The notes beneath the pieces are model-generated. The model had not been told where the DNA came from. It searched no databases and saw nothing but the letters and a program-made list of their open reading frames with translations. Positions 14,883-34,281 of a stretch of 34,483 nucleotides of DNA are shown in pieces. Source of the stretch: Candidatus Magasanikiibacteriota bacterium (lineage in GTDB: Bacteria > Patescibacteriota > Patescibacteriia > Magasanikbacterales > UBA922); contig PBBY01000011.1 of the NCBI GenBank assembly GCA_002716765.1, forward strand, positions 1 through 34,483, in the 5' to 3' direction. The translations under genes were made by a program, and so were the position numbers. Position 1 is the stretch's first letter. Each line of letters starts with the position of its first letter.

Positions 14883-15749
14883 ATGGCTTTAGGTAAAGGA
14901 TTAGGTTCGCTAATTCCACAAAAAACAGAAAATGTCGCACAAAAAAGTGTTGCACTTTCTCCAAAAACAGAAACTGCTTTAGAGCGTGTTTGGCATATTC
15001 CATTATCTGAAATTACAGCAAATCCAGAACAACCAAGAAAATATTTTTCGCATAAAGACTTAGAAGACTTAGTCGCATCAATTAAAAAACATGGTATTAT
15101 GCAGCCGGTTGTTGCTACCGAAAGAAGTGATGGTGGGTATGAGTTAATTGCCGGAGAACGCAGATTTCGTGCGGCAACTGTTGCAGGTTTGGCAACAATT
15201 CCAGCAATAGTTCGGCATGCAACCGATCAGGAAAAATTAGAACTTGCATTAATAGAAAATATTCAACGACAAAACCTTAATCCAATAGAAGAAGGGTTTT
15301 CCTTTAATCGATTAATAGAAGAGTTTGGGTTAACACAAGAAGAGGTGGCGCATCAAGTAGGAAAAAGTCGGTCAGCAGTTGCAAATACTATTCGTTTATT
15401 ACAATTACCCGAACCAATTCAAGAAGCGCTTATAGAAGGCACTATAACTGCCGGAAAAGCACGCGCGCTACTCAGTTTAAAAAGTGAAGATGAGCAAATG
15501 GCACTGTTTCATAGCATGATCGGAGAGGGGGTCACTACCAGAGATGTGGAGTCTGCTGTTGCAAGACGTGGGCCGCGATCACGAAAAGGCTCGGTGCGTC
15601 GAGATCCAAATATAGTATCGCAAGAGCAATTAGTAGAAGAACGACTTGGTTCCAAAGTCCGTATTTCCAAAAGAGGCCAAAAGGGGAGTATTACTATTCA
15701 GTTTTACTCAAAAGATGAGCTGGAACGATTAATACAAGAATTAACATAA
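14883..15749 (+). CDS. parB: Chromosome-partitioning protein ParB (Spo0J)
   Basis: A CTP-dependent DNA clamp that loads at parS and stimulates ParA. It begins with the family hallmark MALGKGLGSLIP. The ParB box I region NPEQPRKYF (about 47-55) and GERRFRAAT (about 91-99) form the nucleotide-binding domain, with ENIQRQNLNPIEE following. The helix-turn-helix is LTQEEVAHQVGKSRSAVANTIRLLQLP (about 149-175). A C-terminal dimerisation part runs to residue 288. The gene ends at a strong terminator shared with relA/spoT on the opposite strand. Confidence 0.96.
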   Translation: MALGKGLGSLIPQKTENVAQKSVALSPKTETALERVWHIPLSEITANPEQPRKYFSHKDLEDLVASIKKHGIMQPVVATERSDGGYELIAGERRFRAATVAGLATIPAIVRHATDQEKLELALIENIQRQNLNPIEEGFSFNRLIEEFGLTQEEVAHQVGKSRSAVANTIRLLQLPEPIQEALIEGTITAGKARALLSLKSEDEQMALFHSMIGEGVTTRDVESAVARRGPRSRKGSVRRDPNIVSQEQLVEERLGSKVRISKRGQKGSITIQFYSKDELERLIQELT

Positions 15750-15781
15750 AAAAATAGATACCAATTGGTATCTATTTTTTT
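15748..15781. terminator. Bidirectional terminator between parB and relA/spoT
   Basis: Seven A, TAGATACC-AATT-GGTATCTA and seven T make a perfect palindrome of over 15 bp per arm. The last codons and stop of relA/spoT lie within it. Confidence 0.92.
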
Positions 15782-17259
15782 GGTAATACTGCCTTAAGCC
15801 ACGCTGTAACTTTTTTCCTTTTTGTATGAGATTTAATCCGCTGTTTTGCGGTATGTGTTTTCACAAATTGTAACCAATCCTCATTTGGTCCTTTTCTGTT
15901 TTTGTCGGTTAAAATTTCTACCACATCTCCATTTTTAAGTGGTGTGTCCAAACTTTGCATAACATCGTTTATAATAACGCCAGTACATTTATTTCCTACC
16001 TCTGTGTGAATGTGGTACGCAAAATCAACAGCCGAGGCACTTTCTGGTAAATCAATTACATCGCCATTTGGGGTAAAAACAAAAATCCGTGTTTGTAAAA
16101 AGTTTACCTTTATTTCTTCTAAGTCAGATAACTTATTAAGCACCTCTTTTTGGATTGTGGCTAATTCTTTTGCCCACTGAATTTCTCTTTTTGGCATATG
16201 TGATCCTTTTTCGTCGTAATGCCAATGTGCGGCGATTCCAAATGTGGCCTCTTCGTGCATTTGTGGTGTACGAATTTGGAATTCGACAATTTGTCCGCTG
16301 TCGGCAAAAACTGTGGTGTGTAATGACTGGTACGCGTTTGGTTTGGGTTGAGAAATATAATCCTTTATGCGCCCTTTCATTGGTTTCCACATTTTATGCA
16401 AAATACCAAGTGCGGTATAGCAATCGGCAATGGTTGGAACCAGGATACGAATGGCAATAAGGTCGTATACCTTGTCTACATCATTACCTTTTTTTTGAAG
16501 TTTCTGAAAAAAACTATAGAGTTTCTTATTTCTACCAACAATTAGCACGTCAATTATACCAGCCTTTTGCAGCTCTTTTGCGGCAACATGCTGTACTTTT
16601 TTATAATACTGTTCTTTTCCGGTAATTCGTTCTTCGTGTATTTGTACAATTCTTTGATATTCTTTTGGGTATACATACTTAAACGATAAATCTTCGATAC
16701 GTGATTTCATTTCGTCCATACCAAGTCGTCCGGCAATTGGTGCATAAATTTCTAAGCTTTCTAGTGCAATGCGGTAGGCTTTTTGCTGTGGCAAAGAATC
16801 AAGTGTTTCTAGATTATGAATTCGATCAGCAAACTTAATAATCATAACTCGAATATCTTCGGCCATTGCCACAAACATTTTTCGCAAGTTTTCTATGTAT
16901 CGTTCAACGCCTCGGTATTTTAGTTTTCCTAATTTGGTAATACCGCTTACCAGTGATGCAACTTCTGCGCCAAAATTGTCTTCTATTTCTTGCAAGGTAA
17001 CAGTGGTGTCTTCTGGGACATCGTGTAATAAAGTGGCAATTACAATAATGGGATCTATTCGCATATATGCCAAAATATGTGCAGCGGCAAGCGGGTGAAT
17101 AATGTATGGTTCACCTGATTTTCTAAATTGACCTTCGTGTGCATTTTTGGCAAAGTCGTATGCCAAAGTAACCATATCTAAATCTGCCGATTTATCGTAG
17201 GTTTGAATCTGTTTGCACAGCGAAGTAATGGTTTCTTTGTTTGTTTTTTTGTTTTCCAT
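15772..17259 (-). CDS. RelA/SpoT-family (p)ppGpp synthetase/hydrolase, shortened
   Basis: It makes and degrades the alarmone (p)ppGpp. The HD hydrolase domain (about 25-180) has H55, H79-D80 in LLHDVPEDT and KFADRIHNLETL, so it looks active. The synthetase domain (about 235-350) has DLIAIRILV, the GRIKDYISQPKPNAYQSLHTTV block and FQIRTPQMHEEATFGIAAHW; the usual Glu in AExGIAAHW is Thr here. A TGS domain follows (IFVFTPNGDVIDLP, about 395-455). The protein ends at 495 aa, lacking the helical, zinc-finger and ACT/RRM domains by which long Rel enzymes read ribosome state. It has its own promoter and is nearly leaderless. Confidence 0.93.
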   Translation of the reverse strand: MENKKTNKETITSLCKQIQTYDKSADLDMVTLAYDFAKNAHEGQFRKSGEPYIIHPLAAAHILAYMRIDPIIVIATLLHDVPEDTTVTLQEIEDNFGAEVASLVSGITKLGKLKYRGVERYIENLRKMFVAMAEDIRVMIIKFADRIHNLETLDSLPQQKAYRIALESLEIYAPIAGRLGMDEMKSRIEDLSFKYVYPKEYQRIVQIHEERITGKEQYYKKVQHVAAKELQKAGIIDVLIVGRNKKLYSFFQKLQKKGNDVDKVYDLIAIRILVPTIADCYTALGILHKMWKPMKGRIKDYISQPKPNAYQSLHTTVFADSGQIVEFQIRTPQMHEEATFGIAAHWHYDEKGSHMPKREIQWAKELATIQKEVLNKLSDLEEIKVNFLQTRIFVFTPNGDVIDLPESASAVDFAYHIHTEVGNKCTGVIINDVMQSLDTPLKNGDVVEILTDKNRKGPNEDWLQFVKTHTAKQRIKSHTKRKKVTAWLKAVLPKK

Positions 17260-22228: not shown

Positions 22229-22561
22229 ATGTCACAAAATACTATTTTAAACGTACTTTCTTCACCAAATGTATTTATAGAAAAACTTCTAGAAAAAAAG
22301 GGGATTACCAATTTAACACAAGATCAAAAAGATGTATATGTTCCAGAATTTGCTTCACTTTTAGAACAGCGAATAAGTTTTGCATTAATTCCAAAATTAG
22401 ACGAAAATCATAAAACACGTTTTGTTTCTTTGTTAGAAAACGAAAGCACAACAGCAGAAGAATGGAATCATTTTTGGCATGAAGCTGTGCCAAATTTTGA
22501 AGAAATGCTAAAAGAAGAGTTACGCATATTTTCCACAGACATGCTCAAAAGTTTTGAATAA
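22229..22561 (+). CDS. Unrecognised small acidic protein, 110 aa
   Basis: I do not recognise this family with confidence. The protein is soluble, helical and acidic, with a conserved-looking pattern of leucines (EKLLEKKGITNLTQDQKDVYVPEFASLLEQRI) and a tryptophan pair (EEWNHFWHEAVPNFEEML). No signal peptide or membrane helix is present. It opens a three-gene operon with a 71-aa coiled-coil protein and the 1650-aa repeat protein, so it may work with them. Confidence 0.75.
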   Translation: MSQNTILNVLSSPNVFIEKLLEKKGITNLTQDQKDVYVPEFASLLEQRISFALIPKLDENHKTRFVSLLENESTTAEEWNHFWHEAVPNFEEMLKEELRIFSTDMLKSFE

Positions 22562-27894: not shown

Positions 27895-29424
27895 GTGAAC
27901 AGAAAATCAGATATTACCCAGGATCAGTGCATAGCAAAGAAGTGTGCGCATTTACTTTGTATAGTAATTTTAATGTGTGTGCTTGTGTTTTTGCCATTTT
28001 TGGTACAAGTCACCATCATTTCTTTGGTGCTTTTCGTAATACTTGTAGTATACAAAGGTATTACAAAAACATATCACCCAAAGGCATACGAAGTTGAAGC
28101 CGCAAGATTTGGTATCCACACTTTTGTGTTATTGGCGTCATTGTTCAGTTCGGTTCAGGTTTTAGACCATTACATCCTAAACCCACCGCCAGAACAAGAA
28201 GTTGTGGCCGTAAGTACTTCTGCTGATGATACTACTAAAGCGCCTACTATACCTTTAGCTTATACAGCTACCACACCTAAACCAGAAAGAAGAGTTGTGG
28301 CCTCTGCTAAACCACAAAGAAAGCGACAAGCTAGGAAGCAAGTGGTGAACAAAGAGTCGGTACAATCGGTTCGTGTGAAGTGTTATACTCTTCCTGTCAG
28401 TGTAAGAAGTGAAATTTACCTATATCTTATGGCAAAGTCAACACTTAAGATGTGGTTAAGAAAGGCACCAAGATACCTTTCGGGATTATCTGGTGAAAAA
28501 CGATTTGCGTTTGAGATCCTTATAGAAAAGCGCAAAGCAGAAATGCGTCAAATCGAAGAAGGGAGTTCTGTACGGGTTTTTAAGAGTATTAACATTGTTG
28601 AATCTGTTTTTCATATCCACCTCACAGACAATACACATACATCTTGCTTTGGGATAGAATTAAGTACAGGATCTCCTAAATCAACATACGCGACAGCACA
28701 GTATCATCTATCTAATAATAATCTTCACCACCTTTTCAACGGTGAAATAGAAGAGGAAATCCAACGAAGCAAAGATGCTATTGCGGCAAGACTTGCACAG
28801 CAAGAGGAAGAAAGGAAGCGCATAGCAGCTGCCGCAGCTCGTGAGAGAGAACTAGATAGACGGTATCCAAACCGCCACCAAATGACTGCGTTACTTGCGC
28901 AAATCAACCAAAAAGGCTCAGCCTCGGTTGGGGATTTGCTTCGGTCACTGCAGTTGGCTGGGTTGGGGAAGGATAGAAATTTGGTGAACCTGTATCGGTC
29001 TTATCAGTTTATCGCACTTCACGTACTTACACGCGCAGTAATAAAACGCACGTACCACGTAGCAAAAGTGCGACTTGGTTTGGTTGCAAATCGCATCAAA
29101 AGAGAGCGCACAGTCATTTCTAAAATACTTCTTGAGTCATTTACTCAAAAAGCAGAGAAGAAAAGGCGCATCAAGCAGTTTTTAAAGATCCTCTCTAACG
29201 CACAGATTGCTGCACCGCATCCTGGAGATGCTGGAACACGTACAGCTTTGTATACGTTTATATGGCGTCAAACCACAGAAGCTTCCCGTCAACATTTTGT
29301 GCATACTGCCAAAGCCCATGAAGCAAAAATTGGGTATTTGGGAGTATTCCTGACCGAAGCCGGATATCGTGAGAAGAGTGCTCTAAAATCGCAACAAGTA
29401 TATAACCAAATACTTGGACGCTAG
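27895..29424 (+). CDS. Unrecognised membrane protein, 509 aa
   Basis: No family is recognised. Three hydrophobic segments are near the N-terminus (about 17-35, 38-55, 72-92), followed by a Pro/Thr-rich linker (96-130), a strongly basic stretch (PQRKRQARKQ) and a large soluble part. The latter has a coiled coil (EEIQRSKDAIAARLAQQEEERKR, about 283-305) and a basic helical C-terminus. The start is GTG with a good SD (AAAAGGAG, six bases before). The gene has its own strong promoter and two hairpins after its stop, one showing AAGGAGG in its loop. Higher GC and different codon use from the giant gene before it suggest a separate origin. Confidence 0.75.
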   Translation: MNRKSDITQDQCIAKKCAHLLCIVILMCVLVFLPFLVQVTIISLVLFVILVVYKGITKTYHPKAYEVEAARFGIHTFVLLASLFSSVQVLDHYILNPPPEQEVVAVSTSADDTTKAPTIPLAYTATTPKPERRVVASAKPQRKRQARKQVVNKESVQSVRVKCYTLPVSVRSEIYLYLMAKSTLKMWLRKAPRYLSGLSGEKRFAFEILIEKRKAEMRQIEEGSSVRVFKSINIVESVFHIHLTDNTHTSCFGIELSTGSPKSTYATAQYHLSNNNLHHLFNGEIEEEIQRSKDAIAARLAQQEEERKRIAAAAARERELDRRYPNRHQMTALLAQINQKGSASVGDLLRSLQLAGLGKDRNLVNLYRSYQFIALHVLTRAVIKRTYHVAKVRLGLVANRIKRERTVISKILLESFTQKAEKKRRIKQFLKILSNAQIAAPHPGDAGTRTALYTFIWRQTTEASRQHFVHTAKAHEAKIGYLGVFLTEAGYREKSALKSQQVYNQILGR

Positions 29425-29434
29425 CTCATTTACC

Positions 29435-29457
29435 GTATCATTAAAAGGAGGTGATAC
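29435..29457 (+). promoter_or_regulatory. 3' UTR hairpin with SD sequence in the loop
   Basis: GTATCA (29435-29440) pairs with TGATAC (29452-29457). The 11-base loop TTAAAAGGAGG, together with the first bases of the second arm, gives AAAAGGAGGTGAT (29443-29455), a perfect match to the complement of the conserved 16S rRNA 3' end. No start codon follows at a usable distance; a terminator follows instead. Confidence 0.7.
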
Positions 29458-29462
29458 AAAAG

Positions 29463-29490
29463 CATCTTGTATTTTAGCAAGATGTTTTTT
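29463..29490 (+). terminator. Terminator of the 509-aa protein gene
   Basis: CATCTTG, an 8-base loop, CAAGATG and six T. Confidence 0.9.
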
Positions 29491-29516
29491 AATACAAATA
29501 AATTAAGATAAATAAA

Positions 29517-29540
29517 AGAACTCTGCGTTTACAGAGTTCT
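29517..29540 (-). terminator. Terminator of the 707-aa protein gene
   Basis: AGAACTCTG and CAGAGTTCT form a perfect 9-bp stem around a 6-base loop; on the minus strand TTTTATTT follows. Confidence 0.85.
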
Positions 29541-29542
29541 GT

Positions 29543-29569
29543 AAGAGACCCTCCTTGTCTCTTTTTTTT
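29543..29569. promoter_or_regulatory. Hairpin with AAGGAGG (minus) or CCTCCTT (plus) loop
   Basis: AAGAGAC and GTCTCTT form a 7-bp stem around a loop that is exactly CCTCCTT on the plus strand and AAGGAGG on the minus strand. A run of T follows on the plus strand, so it is also a backup terminator there. On the minus strand it lies in the 3' UTR of the 707-aa protein gene, before that gene's terminator. Confidence 0.8.
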
Positions 29570-29607: not shown

Positions 29608-31731
29608 TTAGACCTCGCTTTGACTATCGTCATTACCTGTATTACCCGCACCAGGAGTTAACGGTTCAGATTGATCAGTCTGAACTTCGTCACCTTGGTT
29701 TGTATTTGGAAGTAAAACGGTTGCCTGATTAAGCAAATCTGCTGATACCGAAACATTTACACCATCTAACTGGTTTGTGTCTGGTTGTAAAGCAGGTGTA
29801 TCATTCAGGGACGAAACTACTTCTGGCGAAAGATCTGCAGCCTCTGATGCGTTGGTTGGTGCGATCGAATCTTCTCGATCAAGTAGACTTGTAGAGCCAT
29901 ACGAACCTTGGGAACTTCCAGCTGATAAGAATTCAAAATTAGTTGTTCCGCCCACGCTCTGTGAAAGAGGACTGTTTTGATCTTGTAAGCTTCGAGTATT
30001 CAAGGACACGTTTACTTTGATAGAATCAATAATACTCGTAACATCCTGCACTGTAGGAGCGTCACCATATCGACTGAGAAAGTCAGTTTTTCCGGCAACA
30101 GTAAGGTTGCGAATTAGTGCATCTTTCTCCGCCTCTAAACCTTGCAAATTATCAGCCCAAAATCCATTGATAGATTCTTGAACTCTGCTTTGTTTTTTGG
30201 TTCCAATAATAACATTTGCCAATTGGTGTAACTTATTACGGTACTCTGTCAGGAGTTCGGGGTATCGGTCCATGTCAGCTGCAACTTGTTCGATTCTCGC
30301 GCTCTTTGCTTCGACTAAAGCTGTTTTCGAGTCGGTTTCTAGCTGAGCTTCTTGTTGTGCTAAAAGTTGTAAACTTACCTTATGGCTCTCCTCCATTTTA
30401 GCGAGGGTTTCCCGCTGTTTTTCAAGAGTTTTCGTTTCGTTTGCAAGCCGTTGGGCTGCGTCAGCTTCTGCCTGGATTGCCGGAGTAGGATCTTTCCATT
30501 CCAAGGTGTCATACAGCTGATCTGGAAGTAAGTCTTTACCCACTTTTGTAGGGTTAGGACCATCTTCACTAGACCACTCGGGGAGAACAAGACCAACACG
30601 AGCTAACTGCATCTCAAATCCATTAAGCACTCGAAGAGGTGTCTTGACTTTATCATCCCATACGGCATCAACCTTTTCTTTCAGCTCTGCTTTCGTGAAG
30701 AATCTACCATCATCTTCATTTCTTGAGGTTATTAAATCCTTTCGCTGAGCAAAAAACAATGTGAGCGCGCTCGAGACTTTCCTCTTAAGGTTTGTGTGGA
30801 TTTTGCTTACTTCTGCTTTGTTAATAGCATAGTAAATATCCAACTCCTCATTACGAATCCAAAGTGCCAAGAGTGTGGCAAACCATAACAGGAAAACAAA
30901 AGTTCTGGTATTTTGAATTGCGCCAGCTTTCATTTCGTCTTGCTCTAAAACTCCCATCGCTTGTGTAGTAATCCAGTTTTTTCCAGTGATGGCATAACTG
31001 TCATACAAACTATCAAGAGATTGATCGGCAAGCCCCGCCTTTTTTGCTGCGACTAACGCATCTCTCTTTGCTTGTTTATCTGTAATCTCCTTGTTTATCG
31101 CAGCAATTGCTTCGGAAAATTCTTTTGACTTACTTTTGGTTTCTATTTTGTGTTTAGCAATATCTAGTCGGGTTTCCCGATTGCTTGCTGTCTCCACTTT
31201 GGTTAAACGCTTTCCTTTTGCAGGTGTTATTATTGTGGCATTAAGCGCGGTAAGTTCATCAGCCCTTTGTTTACCGTAGGTCTTTAACAGCTCTTGCTGT
31301 GTGCTTAACAACCTTTGCTTTTCGGCGACGAAAGTCTTAATTTCTTGCTCCACTTTTGCTTCAACCTGGGATTCCGCCTGTGTTAAGACAAGCGCTTTTG
31401 CCGCTTTGTCGATATCCTCTTGAAACCACGCATATGGAAACGAAAAGGTGACTGCGAACGCAACTGCGATATTTAGAAGCAGTGGTCCGAACACGGAACG
31501 CTTTTTGGGGAAGTGGTTTTGTAACGGTCCTTTTTGCACACCTTTGTCTGCTTTTAGCAAAGCAGTTTGCAGAATAAAGGCAAAAGGAAGTGTAAAAATT
31601 GCAAACAATACACTTGTGCTATAAGCGGCATATGCGGCGCTTATACTGCACGCAAGTATAAAGAAGAGTAAAATGTAACAGTATTTGGGTGCATTACACA
31701 CACCATTTGCAATAGAAAAAAGTTGTTTCAT
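29608..31731 (-). CDS. Membrane protein with DUF4407-like topology, 707 aa
   Basis: Layout: two membrane helices near the N-terminus (about 18-37, 39-58), a third (about 81-101, ending FPYAWFQEDID), a long basic/acidic coiled coil (105-235), a fourth helix (276-293), then a cytoplasmic or outer coiled-coil part and a Ser/Thr/Asn-rich acidic tail that is probably disordered (about 590-707). This order of helices and coil resembles DUF4407 proteins, but I see no decisive motif. I start it at the ATG at 31731: TAGGAG lies 8 bases upstream, whereas the ORF-track ATG at 31806 has no SD and lies close to the expected transcription start. It stands alone behind a TTGACA promoter. Confidence 0.72.
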   Translation of the reverse strand: MKQLFSIANGVCNAPKYCYILLFFILACSISAAYAAYSTSVLFAIFTLPFAFILQTALLKADKGVQKGPLQNHFPKKRSVFGPLLLNIAVAFAVTFSFPYAWFQEDIDKAAKALVLTQAESQVEAKVEQEIKTFVAEKQRLLSTQQELLKTYGKQRADELTALNATIITPAKGKRLTKVETASNRETRLDIAKHKIETKSKSKEFSEAIAAINKEITDKQAKRDALVAAKKAGLADQSLDSLYDSYAITGKNWITTQAMGVLEQDEMKAGAIQNTRTFVFLLWFATLLALWIRNEELDIYYAINKAEVSKIHTNLKRKVSSALTLFFAQRKDLITSRNEDDGRFFTKAELKEKVDAVWDDKVKTPLRVLNGFEMQLARVGLVLPEWSSEDGPNPTKVGKDLLPDQLYDTLEWKDPTPAIQAEADAAQRLANETKTLEKQRETLAKMEESHKVSLQLLAQQEAQLETDSKTALVEAKSARIEQVAADMDRYPELLTEYRNKLHQLANVIIGTKKQSRVQESINGFWADNLQGLEAEKDALIRNLTVAGKTDFLSRYGDAPTVQDVTSIIDSIKVNVSLNTRSLQDQNSPLSQSVGGTTNFEFLSAGSSQGSYGSTSLLDREDSIAPTNASEAADLSPEVVSSLNDTPALQPDTNQLDGVNVSVSADLLNQATVLLPNTNQGDEVQTDQSEPLTPGAGNTGNDDSQSEV

Positions 31732-31821
31732 GAGCGAAACTCCTATAGTTTTGGGGTTTGGCTGTAAAGAGCCGAAAAATGTTACGGTGCAAATCATTAT
31801 GCACACAAAAAGTAACCTCGT

Positions 31822-34255: not shown

Positions 34256-34281
34256 CCCCACAATTTAAGGAGGTCGTGGGG
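34256..34281 (+). promoter_or_regulatory. 3' UTR hairpin with SD sequence in the loop
   Basis: CCCCAC (34256-34261) and GTGGGG (34276-34281) form a GC-rich 6-bp stem. Its loop contains AAGGAGGT (34267-34274). The nearest ATG (34291) is 16 bases past the motif and on the far side of the stem, too far for normal initiation. Confidence 0.65.

Follow-up and report, generated by a model that had tools for sequence, protein, structure and literature searches.

Shine-Dalgarno-like hairpin loops at the 3′ ends of neighboring orphan genes in a Magasanikbacterales genome

RESULTS

A hairpin with an SD-like loop lies between the 509-aa gene and its terminator

The window, the whole stretch of 34,483 nucleotides that was analyzed, belongs to a Candidatus Magasanikiibacteriota bacterium (own genome, G000). 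Two relatives recur in the comparisons below, one of the same genus (G001; 711 kb read) and one of the same family (G029; 800 kb read). Most of the left two thirds of the window has homologues in both, much of it in the same order. An orphan cluster begins near 22.2 kb. The large proteins encoded between positions 22229 and 34220 (1650, 509, 732, 472, and 315 aa) have only a few relatives or none; several are of membrane or secreted type, and the cluster adjoins conserved core genes. The features considered here are the following.

27895-29424, + strand: gene for a 509-aa orphan membrane-type protein, with a GTG start, its own Shine-Dalgarno (SD) sequence AAAAAAGGAGA, and stop codon TAG at 29422-29424
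29435-29457, + strand: hairpin H1, stem GTATCA/TGATAC, loop TTAAAAGGAGG (sequence and fold prediction)
29444-29455, + strand: 12-nt match to the 16S tail, AAAGGAGGTGAT, inside H1 (comparison with the organism's own 16S)
29461-29490, + strand: T1, intrinsic terminator of the 509-aa gene, AGCATCTTG...CAAGATG and then TTTTTT
29517-29540, - strand: T2, intrinsic terminator of the convergent 732-aa gene, AGAACTCTG...CAGAGTTCT and then TTTATTT
29543-29563, - strand: hairpin H3, AAGAGAC-AAGGAGG-GTCTCTT, 2 nt before T2 (sequence and fold prediction)
29608-31806, - strand: gene for a 732-aa orphan protein, convergent with the 509-aa gene
34256-34281, + strand: hairpin H4, CCCCAC-AATTTAAGGAGGTC-GTGGGG, 35 nt past the stop codon of the 315-aa gene

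A Pfam search with the 509-aa protein gave no match, and neither this protein nor the 315-aa protein matched anything in 85 other genomes of the order. In the same 85 genomes, the 732-aa protein has one weak, partial match of 96 residues (genome G066); AAGGAGG was absent past the stop codon of this partial homologue in the stretch examined. Searches of genome_contigs with the 509-aa and 732-aa proteins gave no relatives, nor did a search of viral_contigs with the 509-aa protein; the genomes nearest the window's own may be excluded from these two collections.

A preliminary description of this DNA had placed a GTATCA/TGATAC hairpin between the stop codon of the 509-aa gene and its terminator, and its sequence, coordinates, and fold were confirmed. 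H1 reads GTATCATTAAAAGGAGGTGATAC and begins about 10 nt past the TAG; the T1 hairpin, with its U6 tail, begins 3 nt past H1. The minimum-free-energy fold of positions 29380 to 29520 holds both H1 and the adjoining T1 (z = -3.7 versus 200 dinucleotide shuffles), with folding energies of -5.5 kcal/mol for H1 alone and -12.8 kcal/mol for T1. The best fold of H1 pairs the GG of the loop with UU as G-U pairs. With a stable structure immediately downstream of a stop codon (z = -3.7 for the region), H1 has one of the properties of a ribosome termination structure (RTS), and T1, T2, and H3 read on the + strand are each built like an intrinsic terminator, as a G+C-containing hairpin followed by a U-tract. 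Apart from tmRNA and a single tRNA, nothing in the window reached an Rfam gathering threshold, H1, H3, and H4 included. No second copy of H1 as a repeat or mobile element was found in the own genome beyond the 14-nt matches described below.

Inspection of the sequence found no ATG, GTG, or TTG 4 to 12 nt 3′ of H1, in agreement with the preliminary description; the nearest TTG is about 15 nt away, within T1. A small ORF with H1 as its SD, which if expressed would have counted against the preliminary description, was not found.

H1 matches the 16S tail as closely as do the longest SDs of the genome

The organism's own 16S rRNA gene lies on contig C7, and its 3′ tail reads ...GGATCACCTCCTTTCTGG. 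The AAAGGAGGTGAT of H1 is a perfect 12-nt complement to this tail; the fourth A falls outside the match, which is 12 nt rather than 13. The earlier claim that the loop displays the full complement of the tail needs correction in its placement as well: the loop exposes only the AAAGGAGG part, and TGAT sits in the 3′ arm of the stem. By chance, 0.12 exact 12-nt matches are expected in the genome and 0.011 in its noncoding DNA. Apart from the 16S gene itself, only two other matches of at least 12 nt occur in the fetched genome (869.8 of 886.3 kb). Both are true SDs of tandem pilin-like genes: GAAAGGAGGTGATactATG at C4:16928(-), a 13-nt match, and AAAGGAGGTGATattATG at C4:16292(-), a 12-nt match. 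The core sequence of H1 is therefore that of the organism's longest SDs, yet H1 has no start codon at 4 to 12 nt. H1 has 14 nt in common with each of the C4 SDs, largely because all of them are complementary to 16S.

By a permissive measure, most genes of the window have weak SD matches of 3 to 5 nt, and 3 of 25 reach 6 to 8 nt. The H1 match had been described as longer than any real SD in the window; genome-wide, the two C4 SDs are as long. The accompanying statement that core genes here have no SD at all was too strong. The C4 locus itself (about 15800 to 16930, - strand) is a tandem pair of similar secreted membrane proteins (MYLAMRLVKYKTII...), called pilin-like by appearance, with the longest SDs of the genome.

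Two neighboring genes have hairpins with the same loop

The 3′ end of the 732-aa gene mirrors the layout of H1 and T1: the stop codon is followed by 44 nt, H3, 2 nt, and T2. The stem of H3 is unrelated to that of H1, and no start codon lies 4 to 12 nt behind H3 on the - strand. Read on the + strand, H3(+), the same DNA is a second terminator in which a CCTCCTT loop is followed by a T-run, and this loop is complementary at every position to the AAGGAGG that H1 has in its loop. H4 stands directly 5′ of another stable hairpin. A TTG follows 8 nt 3′ of its AAGGAGG and opens a possible 11-codon ORF, so this AAGGAGG could be a real SD. The SD-like hairpin layout at the 732-aa gene and the third hairpin at the 315-aa gene are new here.

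AAGGAGG loops are concentrated in the orphan cluster

Gene calls from a simple longest-ORF scheme over 869.8 kb of the 886.3-kb genome were used to ask how often such loops occur. AAGGAGG is present 117 times, 67 of them in sense coding sequence; a stricter gene set leaves 31 noncoding copies, about half of which resemble ordinary SDs. The heptamer falls wholly within a hairpin loop in 8 of these 31 copies (background, 7.5%; binomial p = 0.002), whereas the 34 permutations of its letters average 0.53 such loops. The 428 3′-UTR stretches contain four AAGGAGG-loop hairpins at a stem score cutoff of 14, whereas 300 dinucleotide-shuffled sets average 0.003, and AAGGAGG stood in such a loop in 0.025% of shuffles of the intergenic region (- strand) and 0.03% of shuffles of the H4 region; these shuffles overstate the surprise because the tests were picked after H1 and H3 had been seen and because SD function raises the noncoding AAGGAGG count. 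Within that limit, the own genome shows the enrichment over dinucleotide shuffles for which the preliminary description had wished to search related genomes; taken together with the results from relatives below, the checks proposed there give a mixed answer. Three of the four hairpins (H1, H3, and H4) fall in the 5-kb orphan cluster, and this clustering on neighboring orphan genes is hard to dismiss.

SD-like sequences near 3′ ends are not a general feature of relatives

Counts of AGGAGG were compared with those of permuted hexamers in the own genome, G001, and G029. Before predicted terminators, AGGAGG occurs 5, 3, and 1 times (n = 299, 321, and 366, respectively), and permuted hexamers reach 5, 5, and 3; there is no enrichment 5′ of terminators in any of the three. 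After terminal stop codons, AGGAGG is the commonest of the permutations in the own genome (13 versus 11 for the next); in G001 it is one of the rarer ones (3) and in G029 it comes second (11 versus 13), with no clear enrichment in either relative. These counts speak against the interpretation in the preliminary description. A genome-wide rule of an SD-like sequence before terminators was rejected on the permuted-hexamer counts in three genomes. Terminators with anti-SD loops were likewise rejected as a class, very few with CTCCTT having been found; among the predicted terminators of the own genome, H3(+) alone has a loop that includes the whole of CTCCTT.

The search of relatives for the stem-loop, suggested in the preliminary description, was negative: 19 relatives were searched for the H1 hairpin with up to 3 mismatches allowed, and none had it. 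The stop-to-stop intergenic DNA is not conserved, its matches being short (about 30 nt) and confined to four relatives, and no usable orthologous locus for comparison of the stem was found in the order. The evidence says that SD-like 3′ hairpins are not a general system and that the present case is a local curiosity.

At the place in G029 that matches the orphan cluster (C1:106417-109172), AGGAGG overlaps the stop codon in each of two adjacent genes (107937 and 109172), and both genes are followed directly by a hairpin and then by a TTGACA-like sequence. This is a lead only, because AGGAGG near stop codons is not clearly enriched in that genome.

DISCUSSION

The leading explanation, to which we give somewhat less than an even chance, is that H1 with T1 and the mirrored H3 with T2 are ordinary 3′-end modules in which the SD-like loop contributes nothing and is coincidental. 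Each of the two convergent mRNAs would end in a short stem-loop and an intrinsic terminator stacked together; such a module probably helps to define and protect the 3′ end and to halt stray ribosomes that run past the stop codon. We infer that the stem does the work and the loop does not. The direct observations behind this explanation are the predicted folds, the positions of the elements, the missing start codon, and the absence of a general rule in relatives. Stable adjoining hairpins with U-tracts favor it, as do the complete explanation of H3 by its role as a + strand terminator that ends in a T-run, the lack of AGGAGG enrichment before terminators, and the absence of H1 from relatives. 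Three AAGGAGG-loop hairpins with unrelated stems within 5 kb count against it, together with the rarity of such loops in shuffles of those stretches, the 0.011 expected noncoding 12-nt matches and the excess of noncoding AAGGAGG in loops.

An ordinary 3′-end module has parallels. Stable structure just 3′ of stop codons is reported for 18 to 65% of genes in 128 bacterial genomes (PMC7518266). H1 resembles the RTS of that report, a stable stem-loop about 10 nt past the stop codon. The RTS is defined there by folding energy and by insulation from reinitiation on the following gene, whereas the next gene at H1 is convergent, and an SD-like loop, present in H1, is no part of the RTS as far as that report describes it (PMC7518266). 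H1 is also like the 3′-UTR stem-loops that precede intrinsic terminators in standing directly before a U-tract hairpin, and again the SD-like loop is the difference.

Display of an SD is the main alternative, though an unlikely one. The loops of H1, H3(-), and H4 would bind the 16S tail and so retain 30S subunits, unproductively, where the mRNAs of the orphan cluster end, as a local sink, a tether, or a shield of the 3′ end. The 12-nt complementarity of H1 and the recurrence of one loop on different stems at three neighboring genes argue for it. For H1, a simple opening-plus-duplex calculation predicts net pairing between -7.3 (core in loop) and -12.5 kcal/mol; the values are -10.1 for H3(-) and -8.0 for H4, compared with -7.2 for the SD of the 509-aa gene, so that by this model the pairing of the loops with the 16S tail could equal or surpass that of this SD. 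Against display stand the lack of a general rule in the own genome, G001, or G029, the lack of a conserved counterpart in relatives, the double use of H3 as a + strand terminator, and the possibility that H4 is a true SD. The more specific proposal, that the 3′ stem-loops of a lineage-specific, surface-type orphan gene cluster present an SD to free 30S subunits and hold ribosomes as a regulatory or protective device, we consider unlikely. If the loops do bind 30S, the 3′ ends of these mRNAs would bear an additional ribosome site that is unproductive, and such binding would be a new way of shielding or marking mRNA ends; if they do not, the locus is an example of a 12-nt SD match arising in a terminator-adjacent loop. 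A literature search on SD-like or decoy sequences and anti-SD UTR pairing, judged by titles and abstract openings, found no SD displayed in a 3′-UTR hairpin, which is weak evidence of novelty.

The complementary loops raise the prospect of RNA-RNA pairing, which we regard as distinctly improbable. The AAGGAGG loop of H1 would kiss the CCUCCUU loop of H3 in T1 read-through RNA, or H3(+) would cover an SD, on the same mRNA or a different one, as the anti-SD loops of regulatory RNAs do. Complementarity is perfect (7/7 nt), and the predicted energies are -10.6 kcal/mol for the loops alone and -16.8 for the SD of the 509-aa gene with H3(+) in an unconstrained duplex, but both values leave out the cost of stem opening and the geometry of the loops. 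T1 comes first, so the two loops would occur together only in read-through RNA, and anti-SD loops are not common in the terminators of the own genome, the sole CTCCTT loop of H3(+) being the case in favor. The icaR mRNA of Staphylococcus aureus undergoes 3′-5′ UTR pairing that acts through the SD. S. aureus small RNAs are reported to repress by pairing with SDs, and RsaI to act on the icaR 3′ UTR (PMC9266662). Judged by its sequence, the CCUCCUU loop of H3(+) might likewise cover an SD; unlike those RNAs, H3(+) has a putative target only, and such loops are uncommon in own-genome terminators.

The two remaining explanations are far less probable. That H4 starts the 11-codon TTG ORF and that H1 serves, or is a remnant of, an unrecognized small ORF would fit the TTG 8 nt past the H4 AAGGAGG and the 14 nt that H1 has in common with each C4 SD. 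H1 has no start at 4 to 12 nt, its nearest TTG is inside the terminator, and the C4 matches come largely from common complementarity to 16S, all of which makes this account very improbable. Least probable is recognition of the SD-like loop by an RNA-binding protein specific for GGA in hairpin loops. Such a GGA is the classic site of CsrA, and in this respect the hairpins resemble those bound by CsrA/RsmA. CsrA binding is unlikely because no CsrA gene was found in the own genome (about 90% complete), although two relatives have one. Hfq was not found in the own genome either, and a CsrA or Hfq site was accordingly rejected.

Other structured elements

Several other elements were recorded during the survey. 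On contig C22 of the own genome (L050:10330-10420), a 3′-UTR fold around GCAGGGAAAAGGAGGGGTCCTTGTAG has several stems and is followed by a hairpin; it contains an SD-like AAGGAGG with TTG-TAG (start-stop) 5 nt downstream. On contig C14 (L028, about 15590 to 15780, - strand), a structured element is present in two tandem copies with the core GTTCGACACGAACGTTGAGGTTAAGGAGGGGTACCTCGCGGCTCAAGCACCGAAC and differing outer stems. It has no Rfam match up to E = 1, and 286 genomes searched in the class gave one short match of 26 nt, in 1 other genome.

Two further elements occur in both the own genome and G001. Alike hairpins with TAGAGGAGGAG in the 3′ arm stand directly before the terminator CCATCTGTATT.CAGGTGGTTTTTTG on contig C13 of the own genome (about 21054 to 20940, - strand) and contig C51 of G001 (about 8235 to 8130, - strand); Rfam gave nothing at gathering level for the C13 copy. 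A bidirectional, terminator-like palindrome, AAAAACCGCA(C/T)CTCCTTAGGTGCGGTTTTT, is kept in both species (C13:28886-28915 in the own genome and C21, about 817 to 832, in G001) and has AAGGAG or CTCCTT near its tip.
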